This document shows, one piece after another, positions 6,432 through 57,252 of a stretch of 64,000 nucleotides of DNA. Within the stretch, counting starts at the first letter, position 1. Every line of letters starts with the position of its first letter. Both the position numbers and the translations under genes were made by a program. This DNA comes from Chrysaora quinquecirrha (taxonomy: Eukaryota > Cnidaria > Scyphozoa > Semaeostomeae > Pelagiidae): NCBI GenBank assembly GCA_014526335.1, contig JACTAT010000037.1:11472008-11536007 (forward strand), in the 5' to 3' direction. The notes below the pieces were generated by a model, which saw only the letters and a list, made by a program, of their open reading frames with translations, was not told the DNA's origin and did no database searches.

Positions 6432-7411
6432 TTAGATATCTGATTTAGATACCTTCTTTAGGTTCTGGATATATCTGACCTGAAGATGGGCTGGTGAGAA
6501 AGCTTTTGCAGTTGATATCAGCTTTCCTATGAGACTGGCAAGCTTCCTTACTGATATTGTTGTGTTCTGTGTTACCTGCTGACAAAGCTGAATAATTTTC
6601 TCTACTTTGGATTCTGGGATAGAGAATGTCATGTCCTCTGAGTTGACTATCGGGGTTAGATGTGACTTCCCCCAGTTTATCACAAATCCCAGATTTTTAA
6701 CACAAAGAGGACTGTGTGCAGCTTCTACCTCGTAAAGTTTGTTTGCAAACAAAAGCATGTAATCCATGTATATCACTATTCTGAAGTTTATTTTCCTTGA
6801 AATGGTTATGGGGGTTTTTATAATTTTTGTGAACTCCCTTGGAGCTGGTCCCAGTCCGAATACTAGAGATGTGTACTTGTACAGGTTTCCGTCCCACATG
6901 AACCTTATTAATTTCCTGCTTTCAGCTGCTATGTTCACTGAGTAGTAGGCATGCTTTTGATCTATTTTTATCAATAGATCTCCCTGTCAGAGAAGGTTCT
7001 TTACCTTTTTTAGGGTCTCCATTTTGAATTTCTTGTGTGGCCCGACAGCATTGAGGGGTTTTTGATTCACTGTTGGTCTGTATTGCTCTTATTCTTTCTT
7101 TTCCCTTATGAAAATGTGGCTTATTATTCCCCTTTTAAATGTTTTACTTTTTGAATAACACTTATTTTCAACATGTTTGCTATCTCCTTGGAAACAATTA
7201 AATTTGTTCCTCGCTCATTCCAAAATGTCTTGGGATAGCACTTTGCTGAAAGGTCTGCAATAGTGGAATTTTGTAGCCTCTGACCCAGTGTAGAATCGGC
7301 TGGTCTTTTGTTAGTTTCCCCCACTGCGGGAGGAAATTAGTGTACTTCCGGTCAAAAGTGACCCATCTTTGATTTGAAATCTCCAGGGTCGATTTAGAAT
7401 ATTTCAGCAAT
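6432..7411 (-). pseudogene. DIRS-like reverse transcriptase, inactive
   Basis: From right to left: RWVTFDRKYTNFLPQWGKLT and ILHWVRGYKIPL (the N-terminal region seen in DIRS elements), SKEIANMLKISVIQKV, then FKMETLKKVKNLL and IKIDQKHAYYSV (palm motif A), FGLGPAP (motif B), and IYMDYMLL at motif C, followed by ENLGFVINW-like and LASLIGKL motifs. The motif C pair, normally YIDD, is YMDY, so a catalytic Asp is lost. In-frame stops lie near 6985 and 7093, and frame changes near 7200 and 7140. Diagnosis as DIRS group is firm; the subgroup is not. Confidence 0.85.
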
Positions 7412-7465
7412 AAAATTTGAGGTTAGGTTGAAATTCAGTTTTTCACATAGAATTGCCTGCCTAAA
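7337..7465. repeat. Empty-site paralogue of the Academ-like insertion target
   Basis: GTGTACTTCCGG..ATTTCAGCAATAAAATTTGAGGTTAGGTTGAA runs unbroken here. The same sequence occurs split at 8797-8881 and 14859-14912 on the two sides of the 5,977-bp element. TTT at 7416-7418 corresponds to the duplicated TTT. Confidence 0.85.
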
Positions 7466-7769
7466 ACGGGATCACATCATCGGAAAACAAGGAAATCAAT
7501 CTGGAAATGATACAGAGAAAATGGGCGATGGTGGAGATTACGCCAGACACAGCACAGCTCAGGAACAGGCCACTGGCTCAAGCTCGGAAAGGCAGGCAAG
7601 TCCAATGCGGCTCAAAAGGGGGCTACATAGCACTGTCCTGCAATTAAGGGGCTAAAATGCACCCATACCAGCAAGAAAGCAACAAAACGGAAAGCTAAAA
7701 TGCCAATAAAAAGTGGATAGAGAAAAAGAGAGGAGAGAACTTTCCTCCTCTTCTTAAAGTACCTCTACA

Positions 7770-8587
7770 TCCAGCACAGACAGCTACAGCAGCATATCGT
7801 CCTCATCTTCTGAGGAGAACAAGGAGGAAACATGGTGCATGATAAAATCCGAAGACATGATTTCATGGAAGCTGCCACAAAGGTCTCTAATGCAGATTTC
7901 AAAGAAAACATTTAAGACGTATCTCGGGGAGGCAAAAGCCCCCTTCGCTGCTGTCAATGAGAAATCCTTGGCCAGAATCTCTAACAAAATGGGATTTGTC
8001 CACAAAGGCAAATATACCAAGCTAAAATCAGAATTTAGAAAAAATAGAAAAAAAGTCCATGGTATTTATCTCACAAGCAGTTTCTGCTGTCACCTTTCAC
8101 AGAAGATCTGTTCCGACAGTATTTGGCAAGAAAACAGAAAGAGCCCTGAGATGGCTGAAGGAGAAGTACACTAAGCCTCCAAAAGAGGCCACTCCTGATC
8201 TGTTTGGAACTGAGTTCCCGAAAGCAGTACAAAACGATGCAAGATCTGTTGATCAATCAATTATCCGTTATCTGCAAATGCAATCCAAGCAGAAATTCAT
8301 GCCCTTTCAAGGGGGCTCTACGGTCAGATCCAGGCATTCCAGCTACACCGTGGAGCACACCAAAGCTGCACAAATCTCAACAAGAGGATCAAAAGGTAAA
8401 TCTTCTACCCACAATGATGAGAAAAAGATTCATCTCCAACACAGAGCTAAAACCTTTACAAAGGACACATGTCCACAATTTTGGGCCTAATAAGCCCAAC
8501 AACAACATCCCTACCCATGGAGGGGAGATGTTTCTGCCTCCAAAAAGGAGTTTTCATGCGATGATAGACATGCTAGTACCTCAATGA
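7770..8587 (+). pseudogene. Gag-like frame, possibly of a second DIRS copy (tentative)
   Basis: A Ser-rich acidic stretch (about 7770-7825) leads into SEDMISWKLPQ and NKMGFVHKGKY, then, after a frame change near 8058, RALRWLKEKYTKPPKEATPD and DLFGTEFPKAVQ..SVDQSI. I recall similar SEDMISWKLP blocks in cnidarian DIRS gag proteins, but this is memory, not a search. It points away from the DIRS RT on the - strand, so it would belong to a second, head-to-head copy. It might also be an unrelated host exon. Confidence 0.35.
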
Positions 8588-8881
8588 CAAGAAAAATACA
8601 ATTTTGGTGATTTTCATTTTCGATGATGTCATATTTGAAAATAGAAATGTTGATGAAAATAAACAAATTATACATGAATCGATAGCACCTTGTCTGCTGA
8701 GTCTAAAAATGCATATATTATTCATATCAAACGCAATTGAGGCAAGTAAACACAAATTTAAAACGAAATTTGTGCACTTTATGACATCATCAAATTAGTG
8801 TACTTCCAGCCAATACAAAAGCGACCCATCTTTGATTTGAAATCTCCATGGTAGATTTGGTATATTTCAGCAATAAAATTT

Positions 8882-9245
8882 TAGACAGGGCATATAGTCT
8901 AGCAATCTAACAAAATGCCTAATTTAACTTTTTATTGTGGAATCTGATAGATTAGGTAGGAAGCTTCAAAAAACCACCGAATACCTTTCCAGGAAAACTT
9001 CTGGCGTCACGTGACTGATGGCATCAAATGCGGCAAAAATTGTGCACAAATCCTGCGATAACTCGTGAACGGTATAAAATATAAACTTAAAAATGGCATA
9101 TTTGGTATCGGCTAAATAAGACCTTTTGAATGATATACAGTTTTATCAGTCTGCTACATATTTGAAATTTTCCTCCTCCGCAGCGTCCGCAAATTTTATT
9201 CTTTAAAGTCGTTATTCGGATTGGGCTATGCAAATAGAACTGACT
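8882..9245 (+). repeat. Left terminal inverted repeat of the Academ-like element
   Basis: About 355 bases. The outer ~315 (to CCTCCTCCGCAGCG near 9187) pair almost perfectly with 14545-14858; the inner 50 are more diverged but still alignable (ending at GCTATGCAAATAGAA). Confidence 0.9.
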
Positions 9246-9378
9246 TGACTCTTCCCAAAATTTTCTCTCTTTACTTTTAAGATAGCATATCACGCTGAAA
9301 TGCGATGCCTGAAATGAACGATTAAGTACTCAACTACAAGAAACCAAACGCTGCAACACTATTATGTACAAAAATGAT

Positions 9379-10080
9379 CTAAGGTAAATAGTCACTGTTG
9401 GAAGAGTCCGTTTTTTCTTCTTCTGATGTCGTAAAGTCTTTTTCCCAATCAGAACTATCTGAAGCTCCTTCTGTTTCATTCATAGCACTGCTTTCTCTTT
9501 GTTCCATGTCGTCGCTTGTGTCGTTACTTCTTTTCGTCCCTCGGGGAGTGACTTTTTTCCTTTTCTGCGAAGGTTCTGTTTGCTCAGCTTCTGATTCTTT
9601 ATCAGCTTCAGAACCATCTCCAGTGTTACCTGTTTTCTTCCTGGATTTACCCCTTTGTCGAATAAGAGATCTTGGCAACTGATTTCCAGTGAACCAAACG
9701 GGATTTACAAATTTCTTGTCGTGGTCAATTTTCCATCCGAAATCTTCAATGTTCAACGGAACTATGTGATGGTTCAAGCAGTTCAGCCAAATATAAGATT
9801 GTAAATGGACCCGTTTTATCTCTTGACAAACTGAATCTGGGTCAGGTAATAATGGTGCTGAAGATTTCACTTTCATTTTCAAATATTGCTGTACCCTCGT
9901 CTGGACATAGCTGTCTTTATCCTTTCCATGGTACATAAATATTTGAAAAAATTTCTTTGCGTTTTCCACCGTCTGATTAGAAATGGAAGTGCTCTTACCC
10001 AGTTGATCAATGAGAGCTAAGCCGCTTTTGTCTTTCAATTTTCTTAAAAATTTTTCTTAAAAACTTTTATCTTTCCTTTA
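9379..10080 (-). pseudogene. Academ-like protein, C-terminal part
   Basis: The frame starts with FNKGKIKVFKKNF just after the nuclease segment, then continues with KDKSGLALIDQLGKS, a Tyr/Trp-containing region (HLQSYIWLNCLNHH, LNIEDFGWKID) and a long acidic and basic low-complexity tail rich in Ser, Glu and Lys ending at 9379. In relatives I recall, this part ends in a Cys-rich region; none is present here. A few codons after HALTG (about 10087) are lost and the frame changes near 10035. Confidence 0.65.
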
Positions 10081-10086
10081 TTGAAT

Positions 10087-10611
10087 TTAGCCGGTTAGAG
10101 CATGTATCTGAGGTAACACTGTGCAAATTTCAGGGCCAAAGTTATCAAATATCAATCGTACATCAACATACTTCTCGTGCTCAATCTTCATGTGCCATTC
10201 TTGTGAGGCATGGCAGTGTACCATACCATGAAGCAATAGGATAAGCACGTCTGTATCCTTTGCAACAATCACAGCAGGGGATTTATCTTGAGCTGCATGA
10301 AGCACACTTCTCATGTCTGCTTCCCCGTGGTTGCAATCTTGCATTCGTTCCACTCCATTACTTCGAATCAGCCAAGTTTCCTCTTTGTAATTGATGATAA
10401 GCGGGATCTTCAACAATCGTCTGCCGTCTGTACTTCTGAAAAATGAGCTTGCAAGTCGAATAAGATCTTCCTTATTTTCGTTGTTGTCGAAAAACTCTAG
10501 CCATTCCTTTTCTTGAAGCATTTTTTGGTCTACACTTTCCAGACGTACTCTGCGAGATGTTTCTCCCCGCGCAATTCTCGTTGATGATTTGATGCTATAC
10601 GTAAGTATCAT
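10087..10611 (-). pseudogene. Academ-like protein, XPG/PIN-like nuclease part
   Basis: Carries NHGEADMRSVLHAA, then AVIVAKDTDVLILLLHG and LPQIHALTG. The E-A-D and D-T-D acidic residues are spaced as in XPG-I/PIN-type nucleases, which cut branched or single-stranded DNA. Upstream is an NWQ/EW-like block (KEWLEFFDNNENKEDLIRLA). It joins the upstream part by a one-base frame change near 10605 (NDTY / SIKSS). Nuclease function is inferred from motifs only. Confidence 0.6.
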
Positions 10612-11203
10612 TGACGATTTCTACTTGTACTGCATCTGCTATTGCAGGAGGTATTGCTGAATGGAGAACAGCGACCAGCCACTCTCTATATGTTTGCTTT
10701 GGTTTCACTGTTCTAAAGAGGGCCATACCATCAATAATCCAACGTGCCTTCAGTGGGATAGCGCTGGAAACCGCTTTTGATTCATTGATCAAATAGTTTC
10801 GGAAACTGGCTTTGTCTGATTGTCGCAACATGTTGTTTGGTGTTGCAAGACTCAATAGAAGTGTTGTAATTGGAAATGTGAACGCTTCTTCAAGCGATGT
10901 TGCTTTTGCCACTAGAATTCCAAAGGCCTGTCGATCTTATTTGAGGATGGATACTGCTTTAGGTGTACTCTTTACCTTTTCAAGCCCGGTTTTCAGCTTT
11001 ACTCTTTTGATTGGATCAAATATACTTTTTTCTTTAGTTACAAGTCGTTTTTGGACAAACCCTTTGTATCTGGTATTGCCAATTTCTGGTGCATTCATTA
11101 GCCCTTCAATTACTTCTGTATCGATTTCTAAACCCGTACAGATTACTTTTGCAGGACCATTTGAAAATGGATCCGTTTTATAGGAATGCAACTTTTCTTT
11201 CAA
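10595..11203 (-). pseudogene. Academ-like protein, segment before the nuclease part
   Basis: One frame from 11203 to 10595 with a single in-frame TAA near 10935. It contains KVICTGLEIDTEV, KGFVQKRLVTKEKSIFDPIK, and WIIDGMALFRTVKPKQTYREW. The IDGMA-type block precedes the nuclease motif in related large proteins and may supply another acidic residue of the nuclease fold. No function is claimed beyond that. Confidence 0.6.
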
Positions 11204-11730
11204 AGCAGTGACATCGCTATGGTGTTTTGCTTTACCACTATCCGTAAGATCTTTGTGAGTCGCCTGGTTTTAATGTTGAGTTTATCACGCATTGTAAGGC
11301 GAAGCTTTGCGTGAATGTGAACCGTTTTCACCCATTTGTTAGTTGTATCGATATTGGTACTAAATCCGGATCTGAATGGACCTGCTGTCCCTTTGGTTTC
11401 GCGATTAAAATATTCAGTGACAAAATCCCCGTGAACAGTTGCAAACTTTTCTCCCGACTAATTTGCTCCGAATCCCCTCTCGAGCAGTTCTTGATAGGCT
11501 GGATTGTTGCTTGATTTCAAATCCGTCAATAGCACATGCTGAAGTGTCAAATAGCGAGAGTAGTTTTGGTGGTCGAAAGCAAACACTTGCTTCAGCATTT
11601 CTCGTTCTGCTTCAAGATGTCTTTCGAAATGTCCTTCACGAACGGCAGAGACCAGAGCTAGTAAAGACGATATATCTCTCAAGTACGCAGCAGTCATTGT
11701 TTGTTGAGGACTTTCACAGCTACTTATCTC
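11204..11730 (-). pseudogene. Academ-like protein, middle segment
   Basis: Reads FERHLEAEREMLKQVFAFDHQNYSRYLTLQH.. and, after a frame change near 11458, a stretch with FNRETKGTAGPFRSGFSTNIDTT-like content (about 11330-11440). FDHxNYxRYL and an H-x-Q/N-rich block after it are features of this protein group. It joins 11737-12354 with a short frame change. Confidence 0.6.
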
Positions 11731-11736
11731 ACGAAC

Positions 11737-12560
11737 TTACTCTTCAAATTCATCTAATTCTATAACGGCTTCAAGTGCTTCTGTGGATGGATTTTCTCTC
11801 AGTGACTTCAGGCTCTCACGCAGACCATCAGATAAAGACGCGTAGTTGTCCCGTAGTTGTTCTGTACCATACTGGACAAGAGCAGCGAATGACTCTTTCA
11901 GAATTCGCATACACCGATAATAATGCTTTCCTCCAAATGCTTGATCTACAGAACCAGCAGAAATTGTCCCTGCGTCAACAAACCAATCTTTGTAGCCAAT
12001 ACACGAATGCCTCTTAAATATTAATTGCTGGCAAACACGTAATTGGTGAAAGCCACCCATAAGGACAATGATATTCTTATAGAGACCGCTATTCTTCCAT
12101 ATTATCTGCACAAGCCTGGCATAAACCTCTTCGTCTGTGTGGGCAAAAATATGTTTTAATCCAAGATCATCCATTACATGTTTGAGGGTGTCAAGATAGT
12201 TCTTGCATACTGAAATATTGGGTGGTTGATTTATTACAGGCATGTATTCAATGAGCGATTTTTTTCTGCTTGCGATCAGAAACCTTTCTATTGAAAGCAG
12301 TCCAAGACCCCAACATTGGTAAATCAGGTTCACCATCAGTAGCAGGCAGACCACTTGCTAATGACCACACTACATCTCTGCGAAAGCTTTCTTCGAGGAG
12401 CTCTGTGCCTTAATCATCCTGATAAGCGGGAAATGCAAGAGGATCCGCTCTCGCACCAAGATGATATTCTTCAATATTGTTAGTAACAATTTCCTCACAG
12501 GGAACTAGTTCTTGAATTGTTGATTTCGTTTCATGAAGAATGCTGTCACCTGTAATAAAT
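11737..12560 (-). pseudogene. Academ-like protein, GGFH core segment
   Basis: Begins at a splice acceptor TTTATTACAG (about 12551) and reads DSILHETKSTIQELVP, LGARADPLAFPAY, LPATDGEPDLPMLGSW, then, after a frame change near 12260, EYMPVINQPPNIS and NIIVLMGGFHQLRVCQQLIF and SVDQAFGGKHYYRCMRILKE. The GGFH block and the acidic residues upstream look like the central catalytic part of the large family protein. An in-frame TAA lies near 12415. Which residues make the DDE triad cannot be settled here. Confidence 0.6.
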
Positions 12561-12636
12561 CAAAATTAGGGTATTTAATTATTCATAAATCTGGAATCTG
12601 CTCAAGTCTATACATCAGAAACAGAATCTAGAAAAT

Positions 12637-13475
12637 CTACAAAAATTTACATGGAATAAATGGCTGAAATAGTGTGCTGTTCGTATCATGAGTGGTTCCA
12701 ACACCGGTAAGAGTTTCCTGGCGGCCATCATTGTTATCAATGGTAGAATGTAGAGGGTATCCTTTCACAAAACGTTTGTGTACTTCAATCTGAGCGGAGG
12801 ACCATGCATCATTGTATTTTCTGATTTCATTGTACGAAATTGAATGGCCAAGATTGTGAAGATGTGCGGCTGCCTTTTTACTACCAGTAAGTCTGTGTAT
12901 TGTCAGTCCTAGCATGGCTTGTTTTACATTCTTCTGGCGAGTGATTAGCGACTGCCAATCTGATGCTATTGACCAAATGTTATTGGCAATGTTACTTGAC
13001 TGCGTAATGGCATAACCTTCATCATTGGTCTTAAAATTCGGATACATCGTGGCATATATAATATTGTACAATTCAGGCATCGGGCCCTTGTTGAAGTGTG
13101 CAATCATTTCATCAGGATTTATTGGTAAACTTTCTGGCTCTCGCTCTTTGAATTTGCTCTTGATGAAATTCGCAAACGAACGAATGTGATCCATATCCCT
13201 CAGTCCATGGCCAAGCAGTGTTGCAACACTATACCCGCAGGGATTCATGAGCGCCGAATGAACAATAACGTATTTCCCTGTTGTAAAAAAATCAATTTCG
13301 GATCCAAATTGCTTCACCAATTCTCTCTTCAATGACACAGTGTGCATGAAAGCAGGCTCTAAGTTATTTTCTTCGCATATAACCTTTATGTCTTATAATA
13401 ACTGGTGGAGAAGATATGCCTCCTTCTTCCCAATTACTTTCCATCCAACAATTCTGAAGAACTCATCGATTATGA
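12637..13475 (-). pseudogene. Academ-like protein, exon before the intron
   Basis: Reads FIIDEFFRIVGWKVIGKKE, then HTVSLKRELVKQFG, AMLGLTIHRLTGSKKAAAHL, HNLGHSISYNEI and TIDNNDGRQETLTGVGTTHD. These blocks, in this order, are shared with a large family of cnidarian and fish proteins. The exon appears to end at FIP..GTAAAT (about 12651), and joining to TTATTACAG/GTGACAGC at 12551 keeps the frame, giving an intron of about 100 bp. A TAA near 13390 and a frame change near 13475 interrupt it. Confidence 0.65.
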
Positions 13476-14174
13476 ATTGCTTTTTTTGTCTTTCGAAGAT
13501 TCTTGTTCTTCTTCAACACTCGAAAGCTGGTTTATTGCATACTTAAGGTAACAGTTTTTATGAATATAAATATCAATGGCAAAAAGATCAAAAGACTGTC
13601 CACCTTGCAATACCTGCAGTCTTTTTGTGGCCTCGTGAAATCGGTAAGTAGGTTTAGAAATAAACAGCTCAGTCCTTGCATGAATCCTTTGACGAGAGCT
13701 TTCCTGTTCACATCTGCCAAGTCCAGCTTGATTATATGATCCACCGTCCGTTTCCCTTCTTTCATTACAAATAAAACAAATTTGTTTTCTTTTTTTGGCT
13801 TCTCTTTGTGATCTTCTAGTCTGAACATCACTTGTTAGATCCTCTGATTCTTGTTCGAGAACACTTGTCTTAATTTCTCTGTATCTTTTCCTGTAGTTTT
13901 CCACTTTCGTTCCAAATGTAATACTACAATTTTGATGAGCTTTACCAAATGCTTCAATAACATCACCAATTCGCGAGTGAACATAACGAAAAGAGAAATA
14001 CTTGTCATTTCGATCGATATCAATACAGTTCCATTCTTCTGCAATCCTCTTCAAGTTCTCCCTTCCTTGCTGTGAAAAACTTTTTTGGGAATCTTTTTGC
14101 GAAAAAGAACCATCACATAATAAACAATTTTCACTTGTTTGTTCAAGACTGAGAAATGAAGACGATAGGGCCAT
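13470..14174 (-). pseudogene. Academ-like protein, N-terminal Cys-rich region
   Basis: A 234-residue frame with ENCLLCDGSF near residue 15, then RKQICFICNER near 130 and DIYIHKNCYLKYA near 210. The C-x-x-C pairs followed by H-x(n)-C suggest zinc-binding. It has a Met start (MALSSSFLSLEQ) about 330 bp inside the right TIR and the ATG is the first in the element, so it is taken as the protein start. It joins the next part by a frame change at about 13475. Confidence 0.65.
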
Positions 14175-14504
14175 ATTCCTTCACATTTTTTGAATGTAGT
14201 GAAACAATCGAACTCGACCAGCACATAAGCGATCAAAAAGAGTAATGCACAAAATTGTAGAGAAATGTAAATGATATTCCCATAACTAACAAGCAAATTC
14301 AGTCATTCTTTCAAACTTCACTTTCTCACCTAACATAACTTCGCTTTGTCGTCACAACACCGGAATGATCTTCAGATGCCCCGACAGACATTCATATCAA
14401 CTCTCAATGGGGCTTTTCCTGTTATTCTATAATATCCATTATGTTTTATGAGTAGAGATATGAAAAGCAGTTGTTTTTAGAATCACACGTTTTCGAGAAT
14501 TTCT

Positions 14505-14858
14505 ATTTGAATAGCGCAATTCAAGTAACAACTTTCAAATAGTAATGTCGTGGTCGCTGCGGAGGAGGAAAATTTCAAATATGTAGCAGACTAATAAAAC
14601 TGTATATCATTCAAAAGGTCTTATTTAGCCGATGCCAAATATGCCATTTTTAAGTTTATATTTTATACCGTTCACGAGTTATCGCAGGATTTGTGCACAA
14701 TTTTTGCCGCATTTGACGCCATCAGTCACAGGACGCCGGAAGTTTTCCCGGAAAGGTATTCGGTGGTTTTTTGAAGCTTCCTACCTAGTCTATCAGATTC
14801 CAGAATAAAAAGTTAAATTAGGCATTTTGTTAGATTGCTAGACTATATGCCCTGTCTA
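14505..14858 (-). repeat. Right terminal inverted repeat of the Academ-like element
   Basis: Inverted copy of 8882-9245, ending ..TATGCCCTGTCTA at 14858 and followed by the TTT duplication (14859-14861). The gene's 5' end lies just inside, so the promoter is probably within or next to this repeat. Confidence 0.9.
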
Positions 14859-15067
14859 TTTGAGGTTAGGTTGAAATTTAGTTTTTCATATAGAATTCCC
14901 TGCCTATTTCTTGAATTTTCATCAAGAGCGATCGCAGATTCAGCCATTTGATGAAAACAAAACGAACAATGATGGCAAAGTGGAGGACTGGGACCTAGGT
15001 AGGGCACAGGTTCCTTCTAACGCAAATTAAGTCTTAAGATTTCGTAATAAATGAAATTGACATTTTT

Positions 15068-19555: not shown

Positions 19556-21142
19556 GTTATGCAAATCAGGTTGCCCCATTGTGATGGCCCATCGTTCGAT
19601 TGTGCACGAAACGCTCCAGTCCTGGGCTATCTAGAAATGTGATTCTTTTTTTGATCGAAGCCCTTTCTACCCAGGTTGTGCATGCCGTATTTTTCTAAAT
19701 CTTTTGAGAACAGTAAGTTGGTGAAAATTTTGATCTTATCTCGGCCTCGAAAAGTTTCGTTTTCAATGGCGGCCATCTATCATGTTCCTTTCACTACACG
19801 TACAATGAATCTTTTGCGTGCAACTCTCAGGGGTTTATTCAATGACTTGCTGGCTTTAAAAGCCTGGATTCCATACAAAATCTTAACTGTTGTGCGACTA
19901 TCGCACAGTTGTGAGACGTGAGAATTTCTTTTAAATGCGATTATCGCATACGACCATAAATACAAATACTGACATTTTGGTCGTAGCAGAGCCTTCGCGA
20001 TTACATAACTACGATTTAGTTATGATGTAGTCTTTCTTACAAGATATTTCGAGAAATCAAAATGAAACACGTTTTCCAGACAATGGATACCTTTCCCAAC
20101 GGTATATTTATTGGCAGCGTGCGATTGTGTCTTATCTCTCAACTTCACGCTCAAATACAATACTACAGTACTGTTGTGAACAAAAAAGGCTTTTCCGACT
20201 CCAGCGATGTAAAAGCTTTTTATGTCTACAAAAGTCCCAAGACGAAAGTAGAGTTTTAAGAGTTGAGAATGAAATTTCAAAGAACATGAGAGTTTCTGGG
20301 GATTTCTCAAGGATTTTCTGCCACTTAATAGATGATTCCAGGTGAATTGGGCATTTCTGGGTGGTTTTGGGTGCTTTTCATCAAGTTATGGTTCGTTTTA
20401 AGTCCTTTTGGCTGGTTTTGAGCAATTTTGGGCTGTTTTGCGTTTTCGGTAAGTACGTTTTCACGTTTCCAGGGGTCAAAGGACGTCAAAGGACACTAGG
20501 AGACTGTAGGCCTAATTCATTTTGGAATTTACTTATATTCTTTCCGTTTTCAAGAAGAGTTCTTGCTTTGATTATTTCCCTAAATCGCCACGCTAAACTT
20601 TGTGTTTTACTGTTTCAATGCATTTAAAACATTACTAAGAGGCCCTAAATTTTTCGGGTTTCAAGTTGAATGTTCCTTTGAAAATTCAGAGCACAAAAAA
20701 CAAAACGAAAATCATTCGGATATAGCGAGATATTTATTGTTCATGAAGGACATTTAAAATTAAAGACTGCGATGAGATAGGGATAGGATTTTCGAATTTA
20801 CGCAGCAGTAATACTACTAACTTTGCGTCTTAAGTTGACACAAAAATGTTTGGAATATTCTCAGTAGATCTGGAAATTTGGTGGCGAAAAATTTCGTTAA
20901 GCATTTACCATCGAACTTTTTGACTTTTATTAAGGCTGTTAATAATAGAATTTTCGAGTGCAGACAGGGCATAGAAATGTTGCATTAGAATTCAAGTGGA
21001 TGGAACACAGTCAGAGATACCCTTAACCTCCATGACTCACTGGCTCACTATCCCCCCCAAGGTTTTGTTTTATAAAACTTGGCTTATATTTGACCTTCAG
21101 CTTTCATATTATAATGATGATGATGATGATTATTTTGATGGC

Positions 21143-21174
<32 letters not shown>

Positions 21175-21471
21175 CTGATGATGATTATGATAATGATGAT
21201 GATGATGATTATGATGATGGTAATAATGATGATGATGATGATTATGATTCTAATGGTGATTATAATTACTGTTGATGATGGCGATAATGATAATTTTGAC
21301 GGTGATGATAACTATGATGATGATGATGATGATGATAATGTTCTTTTTTGTCCACAGTTTAATACCCTATTATCAATTCTCTTATGTGTTTACTATTACA
21401 AGTAGACTAGCTTTTTAACTTGACGCCCGCGATGCGGGCAAGCTTTTTACCTTGACACCCGCGATGCAGGT
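19556..21471 (+). repeat. Repeat block A
   Basis: Begins ATGCAAATCAGGTTGCCCCA and contains marks shared with blocks B and C: TCTCGGCCTCGAAAAG, GGCGGCCATCTAT, a GAT/GATGAT microsatellite near its end and TTTGTCCACAGTTTAATAC. It ends in two copies of ACTTGACGCCCGCGATGCGG-like sequence. No coding capacity was recognised. The order of marks suggests a mobile or tandemly duplicated unit. Confidence 0.8.
21111..21342. repeat. GAT-rich microsatellite in block A
   Basis: Imperfect (GAT)n/(GATGATTAT)n. The poly-Met frames seen here are translations of the repeat. Confidence 0.9.
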
Positions 21472-21716
21472 GAATATTAGTACCAGTTTAGCCTTGGAAA
21501 GACAAGATTCCACTCAGCAGCCTTTTAACTTGCTGCCTTTTAACTTGCAGCTTTCTGAACTTTCGCTAGAGTCCGGGGAGGTTAGCTCCCCATAGCATCC
21601 CACAACCTCCCCGGACTCTAGCGAAAGTTCAGAAAGCTGCAAGTTAAAAGGCAGCAAGTTAAAAGGCTGCTGAGTGGAATCTTGTCTTTCCAAGGCTAAA
21701 CTGGTACTAATATTCA
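21472..21716. repeat. Long near-perfect palindrome 1
   Basis: From GAATATTAGTACCAGTTTAG to its reverse complement, with about 110-bp arms and a central spacer of about 26 bp inside GAGTCCGGGGAGGTT..AACCTCCCCGGACTC. It separates blocks A and B. DNA of this shape can fold into a hairpin or cruciform. Confidence 0.92.
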
Positions 21717-21735
21717 TCTCTATCACTAAACTCCT

Positions 21736-23496
21736 TGAATGCAAATTAGGTTGCCCCTTTGTTGTGGCCCATTGTTCGATTGTGCGCTAAAGGCTCCAGT
21801 CCTGGTGCACCTGGAAATGCGATTCTTTTTTTGATCGAAGCCCTTTCTGCCCGGGTAGTGCATGCGCTATTTTTCTAAATCTTTTGAAAAGCGAACGATA
21901 GTAAAAATTTCGATTTTCTCTCGGCCTCAAAAAGTTTCCTTTTTAATGGCGGCCATCTATTATGTTCCTTTCACTACACGAACATTGAATCTTTTGCGTG
22001 CAACTCTCAGGGGTTTATTCAATGACTTGCGGCTTTAAAAAGCCTGGATTCCATACAAAATCGTAACTGTCGTGCGACTATCGCACAATCGTGAGACGTG
22101 AGAATTTCTTTTCGTACGATTATCGCACGACCATAAATACAAATACTGACATTTTGGTCGTAACAGAGCCTCCATGATTAAATTACTACGATTCAGTTGT
22201 GATGTAGTCTTTCTTATAAGATATTTTGAGATATCAAAATGAAACCCGTTTTCCAGACAATGAATACCTTTCCCAACGGTATATTTATTGGCAGCGTGTG
22301 ACTGTGTCTTATTTCTCAACTTCACGCTCAAACACAATACTTCATTACTGTTGTGAACGAAAAAGGCTTTTCCGAGTCCAGCGATGTAAAAGCTATTTAT
22401 GTCAACAAAAGTCCCAAGACGAAAGTAGAATTTTAAGAGTTAAGAATGAAATTTCAAAGAACATGAGGGTTTCTGGTGATTTCTCAAGGATATTCGCGTT
22501 TTTGGTAGGTACGTTTTTACGTTTTCAGGGGTCAAAGGACGTCAAAGGACACTAGGAGACTGTAATTCATTTTGGAATTATTCTCATATTCTTTCTGCTT
22601 CAAGTAGAGTTCTTGCTATGATTATTTCCATAAATTACCGTGCTAAACTTTGAGTTTTACTGTTTCAATGCATATGAAACACTACTAAGACGCCATAAAC
22701 TTTCGGGTTTCAAGTTGAATGTTCATTTGAAAATTCAGAGCACAAACACACAAAATGATTATTGTTCCGATATAGTGCGATATTTATTGTTCATGAAGGA
22801 CATTTAAAATTAAACTCTCAATGAGATAGGAATAGAATTTTCGAATTTACGCAGCAGTAATATTATATTAATTTTGTGTCTTAAGTTGACACAAAAGCGT
22901 TTGGAGTATATTTTCAGTAGATCTGGAAATTTGGTGGCAAATAATTTCATTAAGCATTTACCATCGAACTGTTTGACTTTTATTAAGACTGTTAATAATA
23001 GGATTTTCGAGTGCGGACAGGGCATAAAAACGTTGCATTAGAATTCAAGTGGATGGAACACAGTCAGAGATACCCTTAACCTCCGTGACTCACTGACTCA
23101 CTATCCCACCCAAGGTTTTGTTTTATAAAACTTGGCTTACATTTGACCTTCAGCTTTCATATTATAATGATAATAATGATGATAATACTGATGACATGAA
23201 AATAATGATGACCATGATGACGATGACCTGATGATGATTATGATTATGATAATGATTATGATGATAATAATGATGATGATGATGAGGATGATTCAAATGG
23301 TGATTAAAATGTAATAGTTGATGATGGCGATAATGATAATTTTTGACGGTGCTCATAACTATGATGATGATGGTGATGATGATGATGATGATGTTCTTTT
23401 TTTGTCCACAGTTTAATACCCTTTTATCAATTCTCTTATGTGTTTACCATTACAAGTAGACTAGCTTTTTACCTTGACACCCGCGATGTGGGTGAA
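21736..23496 (+). repeat. Repeat block B
   Basis: Second copy of the block, close to A through most of its length (matching stretches around TTCTCGGCCTC, CTTTCACTACACGAACA, GCAACTCTCAGGGGTTTATT) but missing a section of about 150 bp present in A near 20340-20450. Confidence 0.8.
23160..23393. repeat. GAT-rich microsatellite in block B
   Basis: Imperfect GAT array at the same place as in block A, more interrupted. Confidence 0.85.
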
Positions 23497-23796
23497 TTTT
23501 TACCTTGAAACCCGCGATGCGGGTGAATATTAGTACCAGTTTAGCCTTGGAAAGACAAGATACCACTCAGCTGCCTTTTAACTTGCTGCCTTTTAACTTA
23601 CAGCCTTCTGAACTTTCCCTAGAGTCCGGGGAGGTTAGCTCCCCATGGTATCCCACAACCTCCCCGGACTCTAGCGAAAGTTCAGAAGGCTGTAAGTTAA
23701 AAGGCAGCAAGTTAAAAGGCAGCTGAGTGGTATCTTGTCTTTCCAAGGCTAAACTGGTACTAATATTCACCCGCATCGCGGGTTTCAAGGTAAAAA
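23497..23796. repeat. Long near-perfect palindrome 2
   Basis: 300 bp, from TTTTTACCTTGAAACCCGCG to its reverse complement. It includes the core of palindrome 1 and extends outward over one CCCGCGATGCGGG unit on each side. Confidence 0.93.
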
Positions 23797-23817
23797 TCTC
23801 TATTACTAATATTCTTA

Positions 23818-25068
23818 TTATGCAAATTAGTTGCCCCATTGTTATGGCCCTTTGTTCGATTACACAAGAAAGGCTTTTTCCCTGGGCCACCTAAAGATGC
23901 ACTTTTTTCTTTAATCGATCCTGTTTCTGGCCGGACACTGTTTAAAGATTTTGCTAAGCCTTTTGAAACCTATAAGTTGGTTAAAATTTCGATTTTCTCT
24001 CGGCTCGAAAAAGTTTTGATTTTGATGGCGGCCATCTATTGTGTTCCCTTCACTGCACGCACAGTGATTCTTTTCTCCTGCGGAAGTTTTTTTCCTAATT
24101 GCTCAGTTAATGTTGACATGAGCTGAAATTGGAGCTAAAATTACTCAGTATTTCAAATGGAGGAAACATTCAAAATTTACTCGATTTTTACTCAAAAGTC
24201 TTGCTGTAAAATTCTCCTAAAATTTCTGCAGCAAGTTGGACATTATTTCTGCTGTTGATTCCACAAATATTCTCAAGATTTATCACGCATCCCGACTCTT
24301 TTGTAAAAACATTTCCTAGAGGGCAAACGAAACTGATTCATTTTGGAATCTTACTGATATTTTTTCGGGTTTCAAGAAGAGTTCTTGCTTTGAAAGCTCC
24401 AGAAATCGCCAGGGTAAGAATTGTGTTTTGCTTCTTCGTCTAAAATTTTTCTACTGATAACGCACAGTTGAAAAATTTTAAAGCACTGTGCACGCAACGC
24501 AAGGGAAAAAACTCGTATGGCCTATGAAATATATAGGCCTACCCTATAGGCCTACCCTCTAGGCCTACCCTATAGGCCTACCCTACTCTATAGGTAGGCC
24601 TATAGGCCTACCCTATGAAACTCAAAGGCCTAAAATTTTTTGCGTTCATTTAAAAAGTCAGAGTTTGAACACAAAAAAGTCGACATTTAGTGAGATAGAC
24701 TATTTGTTGCTGATGTAGGAAATTTGAAATTGAAGTTTTGGAGTTTTCTGTGGGATGATGTGGGAAGATTTTTGAACTTTTACCAGGCAGTAATTTTGCC
24801 TGTAATAGGATTTCAAGTGCAGACAGGTCATATAAACATTTTGTTACATTATAGTTCAAGTAGATGGAACACAGTCAAAGATATCCATCACCTCCATGTA
24901 TATCACTTGCTCACAATGATATGGTCATGATGATGATAATGGTGATAACCATAGTGATGACCATAGTGATGATTGTGATGATGATGACAATAATGTTCTT
25001 TTTTTGTCCACAGTTTAATACGGTTTTATCAATTCTCCAATGTGTTTACCATTACAAATAGACTAGCT
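23818..25068 (+). repeat. Repeat block C
   Basis: Third and shortest copy. It starts like A and B (TATGCAAATTAGTTGCCCCA), diverges from about 24080 to 24640, then matches again through GGTCATATAAACAT.., the GAT array (24927-24988) and TTTGTCCACAGTTTAATAC. A relative in inverted orientation lies at 58735-58990. Confidence 0.75.
24525..24622. repeat. 13-bp minisatellite (TAGGCCTACCCTA) in block C
   Basis: About six units of TATAGGCCTACCC in the part of block C that A and B lack, with an internal inverted copy (GGTAGGCCTATAGG). Confidence 0.85.
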
Positions 25069-25491
25069 TTTAAACTTGATGCCGCGATACGGGCAAGCTT
25101 TTTACCTTGACACCCGCGATGCGGGTGAGCTTTTACCTTGACACCCGCGATGCGGGTGAATATTAGTACCAGTTTAGCCTTGGAAAGACAAGATACCACT
25201 CAGCTGCCTTTTGACTTGATACCATTTAACTTGCAACCTTCTGAACTTTCGCTAGAGTCCAGGGAGGTTGAGGGATGCCATGGGGAGCTAACCTCCCCTG
25301 ACTCTAGCGAAAGTTCAGAAGGCTGCAAGTTAAATGGTATCAAGTCAAAAGGCAGCTGAGTGGTATCTTGTCTTTCCAAGGCTAAACTGGTACTAATATT
25401 CACCCGCATCGCGGGTGTCAAGGTAAAAGCTCACCCGCATCGCGGATGTCAAGGTAAAAAGCTTGCCCGCATCGCGGGCATCAAGTTTAAA
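25069..25491. repeat. Long near-perfect palindrome 3
   Basis: 423 bp, from TTAAACTTGATGCCGCG to its reverse complement. It covers three CCCGCGATGCGGG-type units on each side, then the shared core. The central spacer is in the opposite orientation from palindromes 1 and 2. The two arms are nearly identical, so both strands show the same open frames, which are not genes. Confidence 0.93.
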
Positions 25492-25640
25492 TCAGTACTG
25501 TGGAGGATATTCAGTACTGTGGGGGGATACCATCAGTACTTTGGAGGATATTCAGTACTGTGGAGTGATACCATCAGTACTGTGGGGAAATTTTTCATTT
25601 CTGTGGAGGGTGTTTAGCACTGTGGAGGGATACAATCACT
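25490..25640. repeat. 22-24-bp minisatellite, second array
   Basis: Same unit as 19139-19549 (CAGTACTGTGGAGGATATT and CAGTACTTTGGAGG), about six copies, directly abutting palindrome 3. Confidence 0.88.
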
Positions 25641-27599: not shown

Positions 27600-30139
27600 C
27601 CATTAGCTCATGCATGCACATTTTTTTAAGAGTTGTTACCTTAAATTTTTTCCCTGTGCCTCATTATTTGTGAAAATTTTCTATTTTGATCCAGAAATTA
27701 TTCTTCAATAATTCTATGTGACAGCTTGTGTAAATCCGATTTCATAAAAATTAGAAAATATTGGCTAGAATATAACTTTTTTCAAATTAAAACAATTTGC
27801 ACTGCTTTAGAACGATATTTCTCTATAAAAACAGCTCTTTTTACGGAAAAGCTACTTTTCCATGAAAAATCACCAAAAACGCATTGCCTAGCAACATGTC
27901 ACGTGACTAATTAAATTTCAAAGCTATAATTAGAATGCCCATTACCAGGAGATACTTTGTACCAAGTCTGGTTATCCTATCATGTATGGTTTCTGAAATA
28001 ACTAGGGGGGGGCAAAAAATGCCCCCCCCCAGTACAAAGTCGATCCAAAATACCCCAGTACAGATAGGGTTAAAGCTTAGGGCACATCTACTTGAGAGCT
28101 TAAAACCTTACCATAACAGCAGGGTTGTATGGACAAATGCTAAATTCCTTTCTTTCCCGGTTAACATCTTGCCAGACAAAAAAGCAGCAGGAAATTCATA
28201 ATGTAACCCTCGATGACAAGATCTGTTATGTACAAAAGTTTTTCAAAGGTATAAATTGCGCCCACCAAACTCACATTCTTTCTTTCACTTTTGTCTCATT
28301 ATTCGAAAGTTGCACAGACCACACAAAAGGTTGTTTAAATCTTTTGTCAAAATGGCTGGTTTCAGACGATTCGTACGCATTGCTTTTCAATTTGGAAACC
28401 AAGAAAATGATGACAACGATTCCCAAGATCAGTACTCAGAGCACAATGAAATGTCTCCATCCGTTTTCTTGTGAGATTTCAGAACAAGTACACCACTTCA
28501 GTAAGGGTATCTTCCACAGCCAATTTTCCTATATTTTATGGCCTCAGTAGTCAAGACAATCAATTTGCATTTCTATCTTCCCAGAGAAGTACATCCCCAT
28601 CATCGTTTTTGGAGGGGCAGTATGGGCAGACACAGAATAGGCCGGACACTCGGACTACGTCCAGGCAAATCAGAAATGTTGGGCAAGAAGAGCCAGAACA
28701 GCCAGAAGAAATGCCTAAGAGAGCCACCGAAGTGGAAAAAGGGACAAGAAAATGAACAAATGCAGAAATAGATGCTCTGGTTCTCTCATTGAGGGATTGC
28801 TTCATGAAGCCATAAGAATCCTGAAGCTTTGAGACGCATTCTAAATGCCTTAAACCAGAAGGGAAATGGAAAAAACCCTCGAACAGGCAAAGACAAAATT
28901 AACAAACCTTAAAGACTGATATAAGGACGCAAAGGACAAAAATAAAAAGAGTGGGTTGGCAAGAAATTTGCCTCAATATTATGATATATTTGACAAAGTG
29001 CTGGGCACAAGAAGCGTTGTTCAACTCGAAGAAGTAAGGGAGAGTGGGCAAGGGCATGGTATCGCTGAAGCTGAGCTTGGAGAGACTGAAAATGATGACA
29101 TTGCTCCAGTGAAAGGAGCAGTTGATGGGCAGACCATGAATGATGATGCGCCTTAGCCCAGGCGTTCAAAAAAGAAGAAAGCCTCCAAGTTTACAGCAAC
29201 AGCACACTTGGTCAATCTTATATACTAATTTTGTAGTAGTCAAGGCAACAATTTTGTCAGAGCATCTCCTCCCTGGCTGTTTATGTTACGCTTCTAAAAC
29301 CTGCACCCTTCTCTGCAACCTATTCTGAAGTTGAGCCATCGCTTGCCATATCTTTCGTAACTGCTACCGTTTCTTGGGTAAACGGGGGAAAAGCCCCCTC
29401 CTTTGTCACAAGGCATTGTCTTGCCCCATTAGAATCTTTTGTCTACATCCCAGACGTAGATAGCTTGCTTACTATATGTTAAATTCTTCTTACTTCATAA
29501 CGATGACTACAAGTAACGAAGCTGACTGAATATATCTACTAAATTTCATGTATACCTGGATTATTTACTGCGAAATAACAACTTTTCTCGATCTAAAAAG
29601 GTTTTAAGGTTGATGTTTACAGGAAAATGCAGTCAACCGGCTTGAATCGCATTGTGTTAATGCTTTTACCCCTTTCAATTGAAACAAAATGCCATTACCT
29701 GATTTCAAAAGCTTATTCAGAATTGCGTTTCATTTAAAGCAAAACAAAAACCCTTTTGAAAACTTTTGTGAAGGGTGCATTTGAAAGACAACAAAATCAA
29801 ATGCCATCCTGAAGTCTAAGCTGGCTGGATAACAGTATCTGACTATGCAGTATAAAACAGGACTATCAAACTACTAAAAGAGAAACAGGGCTACTAAACT
29901 ACCAAAAGACAAACAGTATCTTGCAGTAAACCCGGGTTCCTGACACGGGACTAAATCTCCATGATCAGACAGAGAATGCGTTCAATCTATTTTATTGCTA
30001 CGCTTTTTATCGAGGATCATTTCAGAGGGAAGGAAACAAGGACGCCTAGAAAGCTAAAACTTTCCACGAAACGAAAAAATGGACTAACCAACGGGCTTAG
30101 AAGCACGCCGAGGAACAGAATTAAGAAGAGGGCTGAATA
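27600..30139. other. No gene recognised; a few + strand open stretches
   Basis: Holds a G8..C10 inverted run at 28004-28030. Short + strand frames at 28347-28475 (KMAGFRRFVRIAFQFGNQE) and 28471-28755 (Gln/Arg/Glu-rich, followed by NAEIDALVLSLRDCF after a stop) look protein-like but match no family I know. They could be exons of an unknown gene or of an old transposon. Confidence 0.35.
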
Positions 30140-31350
30140 CTGTGAATAATTTCAGGACTGGGGAACAGGGCTAAGAAATGGGACTTAAGACCGAGTAATT
30201 TCAGGACTGAGGAACAGGCAGAAGGAGTGGGACTGAAGACCAGGAGTAATTTCAGGACTGAGGAACAGGACATAAGAATGGGACCTAAGACCATGAGTAA
30301 TTTCCGGACTGAGGAACAGGACTAAGGAATGGGACTGAAGACCATGAGTAATTTCGGGACTGAGGAACAGGACTAAGGAATGGGACCTAAGACCATGAGT
30401 AATTTCAGGACTGAGGAACAGGACTAAGGAATAGGACTGAAGACCATGAGTAATTTTGGGACTGAGGAACAGAACTAAGGAATGGGACTGAAGACCACGA
30501 GTAATTTCAGGACTCAGGAACAGGACTAAGGAATGGGACTGAAGACCATGAGTAATTTGAGGACTGAGGAACAGACTAAGGAATGGGACTGAAGACCATG
30601 AGTAATTTCAGGACTGAGGAACAGGACTAAGGAGTGGAACGGAAGACCACGAGTAATTTCAGGATTAAGGAAGAGGACTAAGGAATGGGACTGAAGACCA
30701 CGAGTAATTTCAGGATTAAGGAAGAGGACTAAGGAATGGAACTGAAGACCACGAGTAATTTCAGGATTAAGGAACAGGACTAACGAATGGGACTGAAGAC
30801 CACGAGTAACGTCAGAATTGAGAAAGAGGACTAAGGAATGGGACTGAAGACCACGAGTAATTTCAGGACTGATGAACCGGACTAAGGAATGGGACTGAAG
30901 ACCATGAGTAACATCAGGATTAAGGAAGAGGACTAAGGAATGGGACTGAAGACCATGAGTAATATCAGGACTGAGGAAGAGGACTAAGGAGTGGAACGGA
31001 AGACCACGAGTAAGGTCAGGATTGAGGAAGAGGACTAAGGAATGGGACTGAAGACCATGAGAAATTCAGGACTGAGGAACAGGACTAAAGAATTGGGCTA
31101 AAGACCATGAGTAATTTCAGGACTGAGGAACAGGCCTTAAGAATGGGACTGAAGACCATGAGTAATTTTAGGACTAAGGAACTGGATAAAGGAACGGGAC
31201 TGAAGACCATGAATAATTCCGGGACTAAGGAATCTGAACAATAATAAGTCTGAGGAACAGGACCAAGGAATGGGATAGAAAATCTGAACAATATCAAGAC
31301 TGAGGAACCGGACCAAGGAATGGGACGGAAGACCATCAATTATTTCAGGA
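30140..31350. repeat. 51-bp minisatellite, about 23 units
   Basis: Unit AGGACTGAGGAACAGGACTA followed by AGGAATGGGACTGAAGACCA and TGAGTAATTTC, 51 bases. Units vary by substitutions and small indels toward both ends. The - strand frames here are repeat translations. Confidence 0.95.
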
Positions 31351-31551
31351 CTATTTAAGGAACAGACCATAGATAAACAGAACTGCTGTACACTAACTAA
31401 TTTGAAACTTAGGAACATCATTGTGGACTAAGGACCTTGGACTAAAACAGAGGAACAAAACTGTGATTGGCACTAGGAAAAGGGACCCTGGACTAGGACC
31501 AAGGAAAATACTCAAATTTAGAAACTATGAGCTAAGTGGAGAAGCAGAGTT

Positions 31552-41757: not shown

Positions 41758-42150
41758 CTATGTTTATAAAATGTTTACACATTATTGTTTATTAATGTAC
41801 TGTTAGAAAATAGTGTCGTTTTCATGTGTTGTCATTCTTTGAAAACAAGGTTGTAAATCTTGTTGTAAATTTTAAAAATCTCCTTGTTATTTGCACTATC
41901 TTTAAGGAAATTTTTCCAGCTTTTTGGAATAAGAGCAGACTCTGCTACTCTAAGCCGCATTCTCTTTCCGCGTTTTTGTCGAGCTCCTTCTTTGATACAG
42001 TTTCTTTATACACAGCGAATATTAAGTCAATTCTCTTTATATTATCTACTTTTGCTTTACACATGCTGCATAGCCCGCATATCTACATAATTTGCAAAGC
42101 TGCAAACCAATTTTATACAAATGCATTGGCTGAACTTGGGCAAACCAACC

Positions 42151-43028
42151 CCAAGTCTAAAAATAGAATTTAGGGGTAAGATGTGAATAGGGTCTATATA
42201 ACATCGTTTTGACGCATCAAACTGCGCTTGACTGTGAATTACGACTTCCTATGACTTGTCGTTCTTCCCCTAAACCCAATGGTACAATTAGGGGTCTGGA
42301 CCAGATTACCCCCGTCTAAAAATAGAACTTAGGTGCAATATATGACTTGGGTCTATATCACATCTTTTTCAGCGTATTAAACTGCGTTTATGTGGTGAAT
42401 TGTGACTTTCTATGACCTGGCGTTCTCAGCTTAGGGCCAATTGTACGATTGGGGGGTCTGGACCAGAGTACCCCAGTCTAAAAATAGAACTTAGGGGCAA
42501 GATATGACTTGATTCTATATCACATCTTTTTCAGCGTATTAAACTGGGTTTATGTGGTGAATTGTGACTTTCTATGACCTGGCGTTCTCAGCTTAGGGCC
42601 AATTGTACGATTGGGAGTCTGGACCAGAGTACCCCAGTCTAAAAATAGAACTTAGGGGCAAGATATGACTTGGGTCTATATCACATCTTTTTCAGCGTAT
42701 TAAACTGCGTTTATGTGGTGAATTGTGACTTTCTATGACCTGGCGTTCTCAGTTTATGGCCAATTGTACGATTGGGGGTCTTGACCAGATTACCCCAGTC
42801 TAAAAATAGAACTTAGGGGCAAGATATGACTTGGTTCTATATCACATCTTTTTCAGCGTATTAAACTGCGTTTATGTTGTGAATTGTGACTTTCTATGAC
42901 CTGGCGTTCTCAGTTTATGGCCAATTGTACGATTGGGGGTCTGGACCAGATTACCCCAGTCTAAAAATTGAACTTAGGTGCAATATATGACTTGGGTCTA
43001 TATCACATCTTTTTCAGCATATCAAATT
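42151..43028. repeat. 161-bp satellite, about 5.4 units
   Basis: The start GTCTAAAAATAG recurs at 42155, 42314, 42476, 42637, 42798 and 42959, an almost constant period of 161. Each unit contains ACATCTTTTTCAGCGTATTA and TTGTACGATTGGG. Confidence 0.95.
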
Positions 43029-52670: not shown

Positions 52671-53030
52671 AGCCTAGTTTTACCATAGTACCAGATTAGC
52701 CTTGGCAAGACAAGAGCCTTCCTTCCAAGAATTCATCGCCTTAGTAGGAACCATGTGACCTGTCTACCATCGTTGAGCTTTTGCTAGAGTCCGGGGAGGT
52801 TTAGGGTATGCCATAGAGTACTAACTTCCCTGGACTCTAGCGAAATTCAGCGATGGTAGACAGGTCACATGGTTCCCGTGAAGGCGATGAATTCTTGGAA
52901 GGAAGGCTCTTGATAATCAAAATCAAAACTTTTTTAAGCCAAGAGAAAATTTAAGTTTTTAGCAACTAATAGGTTTGAAAACGCTTAGCAAAATCTTATA
53001 ACAGTGTCCGGCCAGAAACTGGATCAATCC
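52671..53030. repeat. Palindrome 4 and inverted part of a block-C-like repeat
   Basis: Arms 52711-52808 and 52822-52912 pair, with the same core (GAGTCCGGGGAGG..CCTGGACTC) and outer TTAGCCTTGGCAAGACAAGA as palindromes 1-3, but a different arm sequence in between (CTTCCAAGAATTCATCGCC). A stretch at 52918-53030 matches the start of block C in inverted orientation. Confidence 0.8.
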
Positions 53031-54008: not shown

Positions 54009-54010
54009 AT

Positions 54011-54270
54011 ACGCTCTTAAACCGGAAATCGCTGTTGATTGGCTGATGCGATTTTCCCTAGCGACGTGGTAGCAACCGTTCAGTCGCGGTTCTTCACGGT
54101 GTGGAGCACAGTGAAACTCTCGTTGTTCAGGTTTCAAACGCACGTATTATCGATTTTTCATCATATTTAGCCTTGTTTACAGTTATCAACCTAGTTGTAT
54201 ATATTATAGTTGTAGTTTTATAAGTTTTGCCTCATTAAGTCTTTGTTTATCGCCCGAATTTTACATTTGC
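54011..54270 (+). repeat. Left terminal inverted repeat of ISL2EU
   Basis: Pairs with 57253-57512 with few mismatches. The YqaJ gene's ATG is 70 bp inside it, so the repeat likely holds the promoter. Confidence 0.9.
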
Positions 54271-54340
54271 TATCGTACATCATTGATTAGGCCCACTACA
54301 CGGGTTTACATAGGATACGGTTCTGTGAATAATTCTCGAT

Positions 54341-55636
54341 ATGGCACAAGAAATTATAACCTTTGGTGGAATAACGAAGTTTTTTAAAGATGCTCTAAAC
54401 TGTATTGCAAAAGGTGAACTGAAATTCAAAGCTGATTTTGTACTGGACTTGCGTGTCATTGATCATACGATTTATGCAAAAGTCAGGGCATCTATGAAAG
54501 ATAAATCCTACAGTCTTACTTTAACAGTTGATGGTGAAGGTGGTATCAGAGAAGGAAAATGCGAGTGCCCTCGTGGAAATTGGCTTTGCAGTCACATGGC
54601 AGCATCTGCAATCTATGCAAACAAGAAAGGTCTGTCCAAAACAGACCTTCCAAATTCGTGGATTGCAAGGCCGAAGAAAGCTGCAAAGCAAGATGCCAAG
54701 TCATATGCAGATTACTTCCCACAGCCAAAGTCAAATTTCAGTGCCATTAACCGACCTGTTAATGACACAGACAGGGAATTTGTTTTTTCAGCTTTGGCAG
54801 CTACTGCTCTTCAAGTTCCAATGCAGTGGATTGTGGGACCAGAGCCACCATCTCAAACACATGACCCAAGAGCACCTTGTTTAATTGAGGACATCATTGA
54901 AGACTTTGTTGAAGACAGAAACACGTTTCTTGCCAAATGCAAAGTTACCAATGATCAAATTCATTGGCTTGCTGAAAAGACCATTGAACAGCGAAAATCA
55001 CAACTCTGGGGTCAATATCGCCGACTTCGCCTAACGGGAAGCAACTTTGGTGATGTTATAAAGGCCTGTGAAAGGAACAGCCAGCAAAATCGTCCATTCC
55101 CACCATCATTATTTAAGAAGTTGAGAGGAGAATACAGTATTGGGTCTAAGGATTCAATATTATGGGGGCAAATGCATGAGGAAGTTGCAATTGCTGAGTA
55201 TGTTAAAATCACTGGCAATGCAATCAAACCAGCTGGGCTCTACCTTTTCCCTTGTGGTTTCCTAGGTTGCAGCCCAGATTGACTTGTTGAAAAAGCTGAT
55301 AAAGGCAAGGGGGTCTTAGAAGTCAAATGCCCCTGGAAATATAGAAATATTACAGTTGAACAGATCCTTGTGGCAGAGCTAAAAGAAAAAGATCAAAAAG
55401 ATAATTTTTATCTCACAAGAGAAAAAAAGTTGAACAAGGCACATAATTATTGGCAGCAGGTTCAGGCTGAAATGGCAGAAACTCAAGTTGAATGGGCCCA
55501 CTTTGTTATCTGGACTACTAAAGGAATTGAAGTTGAGAGAGAGAGTGACTGGGAAAGTCATTATCTTCCAATTCTCAAAAATTTCTATTTAAATGAACTT
55601 ATGCCAACATGCTATACAAAAGAACATGCAGTTTGA
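54341..55636 (+). pseudogene. SWIM zinc finger + YqaJ-type nuclease of ISL2EU, one in-frame stop
   Basis: Starts MAQEIITFGGITKFFKDAL. A SWIM zinc finger (KCECPRGNWLCSHMA, residues 77-91) comes first. The YqaJ part follows: QRKSQLWGQYRRLRLTGSNF, WGQMHEEVAIAEYVKITG, FLGCSPD (an acidic metal-binding residue), LEVKCPWKYRN (the E-x-K motif) and YWQQVQAEMAET. A single TGA at 55280-55282 interrupts at SPD/LVEK, where relatives have Gly (GGA to TGA); the frame then continues unbroken to 55636. YqaJ proteins are lambda-exonuclease-like nucleases. Its job in transposition is unknown. Confidence 0.85.
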
Positions 55637-57210: not shown

Positions 57211-57252
57211 GATCAGAGGCTGTCCTATGGCCTAGGAAATGCCACGAAAGTA

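Follow-up and report, generated by a model that had tools for sequence, protein, structure and literature searches.

A degenerate Academ-like transposon with a broken transposase-nuclease gene in Chrysaora quinquecirrha, apparently nested in the end of a related element

Introduction

According to a published account, the target-site duplication (TSD) of AcademX transposons measures 3 or 4 bp and that of AcademH 9 or 10 bp, and these features are linked to the helicase and nuclease that the elements encode (PMC10045372). A RecQ helicase is mentioned for Academ in a second source (PMC3627910). Here, we describe an element from a 64,000-nucleotide stretch of the Chrysaora quinquecirrha assembly GCA_014526335.1 (contig JACTAT010000037.1, positions 11,472,008 to 11,536,007, forward strand), referred to below as the window. 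Positions 8882-14858 of the window very probably derive from an autonomous DNA transposon that moved by cut-and-paste and belonged to the Academ kind, specifically to its nuclease-bearing AcademX type; the copy is degenerate. Other systems that bear comparison are the P element and hAT, both of which have TSDs of 8 bp, the former with an N-terminal THAP domain in its transposase, and PIF/Harbinger, which combines a DDE_Tnp_4 transposase with a 3-bp TSD showing a TWA/TAA preference.

Termini and Genomic Copies

The window copy is 5,977 bp long, opens with TAGACAGGG, closes with CCCTGTCTA, and is flanked on both sides by a TTT duplication. Its boundaries can be read directly from the following features.

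8882..9239, plus strand: left terminal inverted repeat (TIR), starting TAGACAGGGCATATAGTC; from arm alignment, with the same terminus in other copies
14501..14858, minus strand: right TIR, ending in CCCTGTCTA; from arm alignment, with the same terminus in other copies
8879..8881, plus strand: left TSD, TTT; from junction reading and TSD test
14859..14861, plus strand: right TSD, TTT; from junction reading and TSD test

Each TIR arm is 358 nt long, and the two are 93% complementary. The left junction reads AAAATTT followed by TAGACAGGG, and the right junction CCCTGTCTA followed by TTTGAGG. An unoccupied paralogue of the insertion site, AAAATTTGAGG, has TTT only once, and its identity to the two flanks of the element is 91% across 69 nt and 94% across 49 nt. 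A preliminary description of this DNA, made from the letters alone, had claimed these ends, TIRs of about 355 bp, and the TTT duplication; all are borne out.

A search of the window's own assembly (328 Mb, 740 contigs) with the opening 419 bp as query returned 31 matches, including the element itself, all of which are contained in 16 loci: the window and 15 fetched stretches. Thus, the TIR search proposed in the preliminary description recovered copies sharing the same ends, and these sit on several contigs with differing flanks. The TSD is testable only where both termini are present, namely in nine of the 16 loci; one or both termini are missing from the other seven (L015 and L018-L023). Six testable copies carry an exact 3-bp TSD (TTT in the window, CAA in L009, ATT in L010, TAC in L011, TTT in L016, and GTA in L017), and in three internally deleted copies (L012, L013, and L014) two of the three bases agree. 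When lengths of 1-8 bp were compared over 16 elements, nine of this family and seven of others, an exact 3-bp TSD was found in 12, spread across four families, against a chance level of 1.8% (20,000 trials with random pairs of window positions at the same spacing). The 3-bp duplication therefore recurs, as the suggested tabulation of flanking 3-mers was meant to establish. None of the 16 elements matched at 4 to 8 bp, which also makes a 9- or 10-bp TSD with the same ends impossible.

Four copies (L009, L010, L011, and L016) are mutually 99.6-99.75% identical, and the family may well have multiplied recently. Because the window copy shows only 97.6-97.7% identity to each of them and carries 126 private substitutions, it is an older or more decayed member.

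Some copies have been rearranged. In L016 (G000:C313:91569-98369), the left end is an inverted duplicate of the right end: the two terminal repeats show 99.7% identity, and an inverted second copy of 789 bp from the right interior stands at the left, yet the TTT TSD is exact. Five others (L012, L013, L014, L015, and L022) are internally deleted to about 2.4-3.0 kb. One and the same set of deletion breakpoints occurs in L012, L013, and L015, and most of them recur in L014 and L022; judging from their sequences, these five copies probably form a non-autonomous subfamily.

The Transposase-Nuclease Protein

On the minus strand, the window element carries a single long gene that is now broken.

9379..14174, minus strand: broken transposase and nuclease gene; six stretches in three frames with internal stops, from tblastn with the homologue P0002
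13539..14126, minus strand: doubled Cys/His N-terminal region; CxxC (14126)...HxNC (13937) and CxxC (13778)...HxNC (13562)
12550..12650, minus strand: likely intron of 101 nt, GT...AG, with the frame shifting across it; from the sequence and from the predicted protein P0001, which continues across
11404..12744, minus strand: RNase H-type transposase core; TIDNNDG (12744-12724), AHTDEEVY (12144-12121), GGFH (from 12057), and VHGDFVTEYFN (11436-11404)
10090..10741, minus strand: FEN1/XPG-type nuclease domain; WIIDGMALFR, IVNDTY, NHGEAD, and AKDTDV

The translation of 14174-13470 is as previously given. The likely intron at 12650-12550 would account for one of the frame changes. In the nuclease domain, NHGEAD takes the place of the EEAD found in 13 aligned homologues, and the last conserved motif, GCD, is gone from the window copy but retained in L011.

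With the read-through protein as query, 24 proteins were recovered among 7,997 scored candidates. The closest, P0001, comes from Hydractinia symbiolongicarpus, where it is listed as uncharacterized (LOC130657893); it is 96% identical over 70% of the query and aligns with copy L011 at 98.7% identity. On this similarity alone, the element's host would probably be a hydrozoan close to Hydractinia. P0002 (1,567 aa) aligns over the full length of the query at 50% identity, and its identity to P0021-P0024 falls to 19-25%. Another homologue, P0020, is filed under a Flavobacteriaceae metagenome bin; our guess is that animal sequence ended up in this bin and that the gene is not bacterial. Homologues of 1,567-1,625 residues bear the doubled Cys/His N-terminus. 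Both CxxC...HxxC units are present in the window gene and in P0001-P0004, and the first Cys of the first unit is missing in P0006. Across an alignment of 13 homologues (P0002 numbering), GxFH is invariant (13/13; residues 670-673), as are or nearly are D479, N480, D482, D644, D880, E884, and N887 of the core and D1113, D1153, E1251, E1252, D1254, D1274, and D1276 of the nuclease. The Asp of GCD (residue 1330) is retained in all 11 rows that cover it. In P0001 numbering, the putative catalytic triad of the core is D480, D647, and E887. We take the acidic set of the nuclease to correspond to the seven acidic positions of FEN1-type nucleases.

Pfam scans of the window element's eight pieces (E ≤ 1) and of six homologues (E ≤ 0.1) listed no transposase family of another superfamily, no helicase family, no DDE_Tnp_4, and no THAP domain, a domain that may be too diverged for the profile. 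A search of 23 homologues at E ≤ 10 likewise listed no transposase family of another superfamily and gave a single weak helicase-related match, to the winged-helix part of Lhr (E 0.22). The family that does recur is PF20231 (DUF6589), to which the entry assigns no function and of which no mention was found in the literature searched. It matches five of the six homologues above the curated cut-off and 20 of 23 at E ≤ 10, and the window's own broken piece matches weakly (E 0.067). In P0001, the match covers residues 717-905, so that a family functionless in Pfam falls here on the later part of a transposase core.

Structural models were made for two shorter homologues, P0001 and P0008. In the P0001 model, the predicted D-D-E core matches the transposases of the P element and of the hAT element Hermes at 6-9% identity, and the resemblance extends to a large helical stretch ahead of the last catalytic residue. 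The C-terminal model has a predicted FEN1/EXO1/XPG-type fold (9-16% identity in the listed alignments), in keeping with the XPG-like nuclease motif that had been noticed in the letters. This domain differs from FEN1, EXO1, and XPG themselves in being fused to a transposase within one protein.

Classification and Alternatives

Because the element encodes a nuclease and generates a 3-bp TSD, it fits AcademX, and it is a new family of this known kind. By description, it shares with AcademX a TSD within the 3-4 bp range, an XPG-type nuclease (from the model), and a DDE/D RNase H transposase (from residues and model), although the window copy, unlike AcademX, is broken. Its length is also near the mean of 5.6 kb reported for bivalve Academ elements. 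AcademH is described as a lineage of the same superfamily but combines a 9-10 bp TSD with a helicase, whereas the present element has 3 bp and no helicase match in the Pfam scans. The earlier assignment to Academ, made from the 3-bp TSD and the XPG-like motif, thus gains support from the recurrent TSD, the FEN1-type fold, and the scans, in which neither the pieces nor the homologues matched a known non-Academ superfamily. PIF/Harbinger, which shares the TSD length, does not fit, given the varied exact TSDs of the family and the missing DDE_Tnp_4 match in the eight pieces and six homologues.

Several points weigh against this classification. The Academ assignment was made by described features, without sequence comparison to any labelled Academ element. 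An exact 3-bp TSD is missing from three of the nine copies that have both termini, and from one of five copies of the host family described below (family B). The structural claims concern models of P0001 and P0008 rather than the window's protein, and the pTM (predicted template modelling) scores of these models are 0.56 and 0.76. Foldseek on its own found nothing at E ≤ 0.001 with either of the models, and its top rows for the C-terminal model were unrelated proteins.

One alternative is that the element belongs to a separate superfamily, with a nuclease and short TSD as in Academ and its own transposase lineage. The strong divergence among homologues (down to 19-25%), the fact that Pfam names the core only as DUF6589, and the placement without a labelled Academ sequence would all agree with such a superfamily. 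However, both properties given for AcademX in the published account, a nuclease and a TSD of 3-4 bp, are present, and the Cys-rich N-terminus and GGFH core, which the preliminary description had offered as possible signs of a separate group, turn out to be common to relatives (the former in P0001-P0004, the latter as GxFH in 13 of 13 homologues). We therefore consider a separate superfamily improbable.

Membership in the P-element superfamily is suggested by the core model, whose best structural match is the P element, and by the RNase H core with a large helical insertion that both P element and hAT share. Yet this match has 6% identity, no significant sequence match to P transposase was seen, none of the 16 elements has an 8-bp TSD, no THAP match was found in the eight pieces or six homologues (though such a domain may have diverged beyond the reach of the profile), and the model adds a C-terminal FEN1-type nuclease, an extra domain relative to P and hAT transposases. 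This reading is highly improbable. That the locus is no transposon at all, its inverted repeat having arisen by chance or a duplicated gene having been misassembled, is a negligible prospect in view of same-ended copies on several contigs with differing flanks and, in six of nine, their own exact 3-bp TSD.

The Host Site: a Second Family of Inverted Repeats

The Academ-like element sits in a repeat belonging to a second TIR family, here called family B.

8525..8881, plus strand: inner part of a right terminal repeat of family B, split by the element; from genome copies
14859..14906, plus strand: outer 48 bp of the same split repeat, ending in CCCTGCCTA; from paralogue match and genome copies
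7334..7463, plus strand: unoccupied paralogue, the outer end of another family-B-type terminal repeat, ending in CCTGCCTA; from paralogue match and genome copies

The empty paralogue had been placed at 7337-7465. It does fix the insertion point through its single TTT, but the repeat ends at 7463 rather than 7465. The occupied repeat is likewise present but longer than first noted, and its two parts make up a whole right terminal repeat of about 405 bp. In a genome search with the 132-bp "empty site" stretch, the best 40 of 206 candidates scored as matches include at least 11 inverted pairs, about 3.1-3.9 kb apart. Five fetched pairs are elements of 3.3-4.0 kb with long TIRs and termini TAGGCAGGG...CCCTGCCTA, one right end being CCCTGTCTA; an exact 3-bp TSD is present in four and absent in L045. 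In family-B interiors, the search for a transposase covered only the listed open frames of L044 and L045.

A genome search with P0001 gave at least 77 matches (among the best 50 of 916 candidates), many divergent and several in long open frames, for which L049 and L050 were fetched. L049 is a 6,263-bp element with 462-bp TIRs, a GTA TSD, and the motifs GGFH, HEEAD, DTDV, and GCD. L050, which carries the motifs DNNDG, GGFH, and GCD, has TIRs of about 345 bp; placing its ends at TAGACAGGT...ACCTGTCTA gives a length of 5,952 bp and a TAA TSD. Over its first 156 bp, the L049 TIR is 76% identical to family B, with the register unchanged, so that family B appears to be related to an Academ-like element and non-autonomous. 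The window element thus seems to be nested inside the end of a smaller related element, one of its own kind.

The alternative of DIRS/Ngaro split repeats with a gag-like frame between them (7334-7465 and the occupied copy) was rejected because many copies of the repeat pair in inverted orientation, about 3.1-3.9 kb apart, and four of the five fetched pairs have 3-bp TSDs. For the intervening 7466-8524, no second copy was found in the genome, and its frames have no Pfam match at E ≤ 1.

Other Features of the Window

A further TIR element lies at 54009-57514. Its arms measure about 260 nt (98%), and it encodes a DDE_Tnp_4 transposase with a sub-threshold THAP match on one strand and, on the opposite strand, a YqaJ-like nuclease; we take it to resemble ISL2EU. 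At 52711-52912, two TAGACAGGT-type termini, the same terminus as in L050, lie in facing orientation with about 90 bp between them, within a 66-nt inverted repeat. Repeated units recur roughly every 1.6-2.2 kb across 19559-25609, with near-perfect palindromes (arms of 121-188 nt, 20-nt loop), and tandem arrays occupy 30091-31357 (period 51 bp) and 42129-43026 (period about 161 bp).

Proposed Mechanism and Implications

In the mechanism that we envisage, binding of the 358-bp TIRs would fall to the Cys/His fingers and to a winged-helix-like part of a single long protein. The D-D-E RNase H core of this protein would cut at the TAGACAGGG ends and join them to target strands 3 bp apart, a stagger that would produce the 3-bp TSD, and the C-terminal FEN1/XPG-type nuclease might trim flaps or branched ends during excision or during gap closure and repair. 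The window copy would have landed in the right terminal repeat of an element that is smaller and apparently related, and later lost its reading frame. It is conceivable, if doubtful, that one polypeptide here unites a P-element/hAT-like DDE transposase with a complete FEN1-type flap nuclease, that this nuclease performs a chemical step of transposition for which other eukaryotic cut-and-paste transposases depend on the host, and that DUF6589 is the catalytic core of the whole class.

In a published Hydractinia account, about 60% of the repeats stay unclassified (PMC11067881). The present work describes an Academ-type element to the base and from multiple copies, to which the apparent nesting in a related family adds. 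By tying DUF6589 to a transposase core of predicted P-element-like architecture, it may also allow matching "uncharacterized" proteins to be annotated as transposases.
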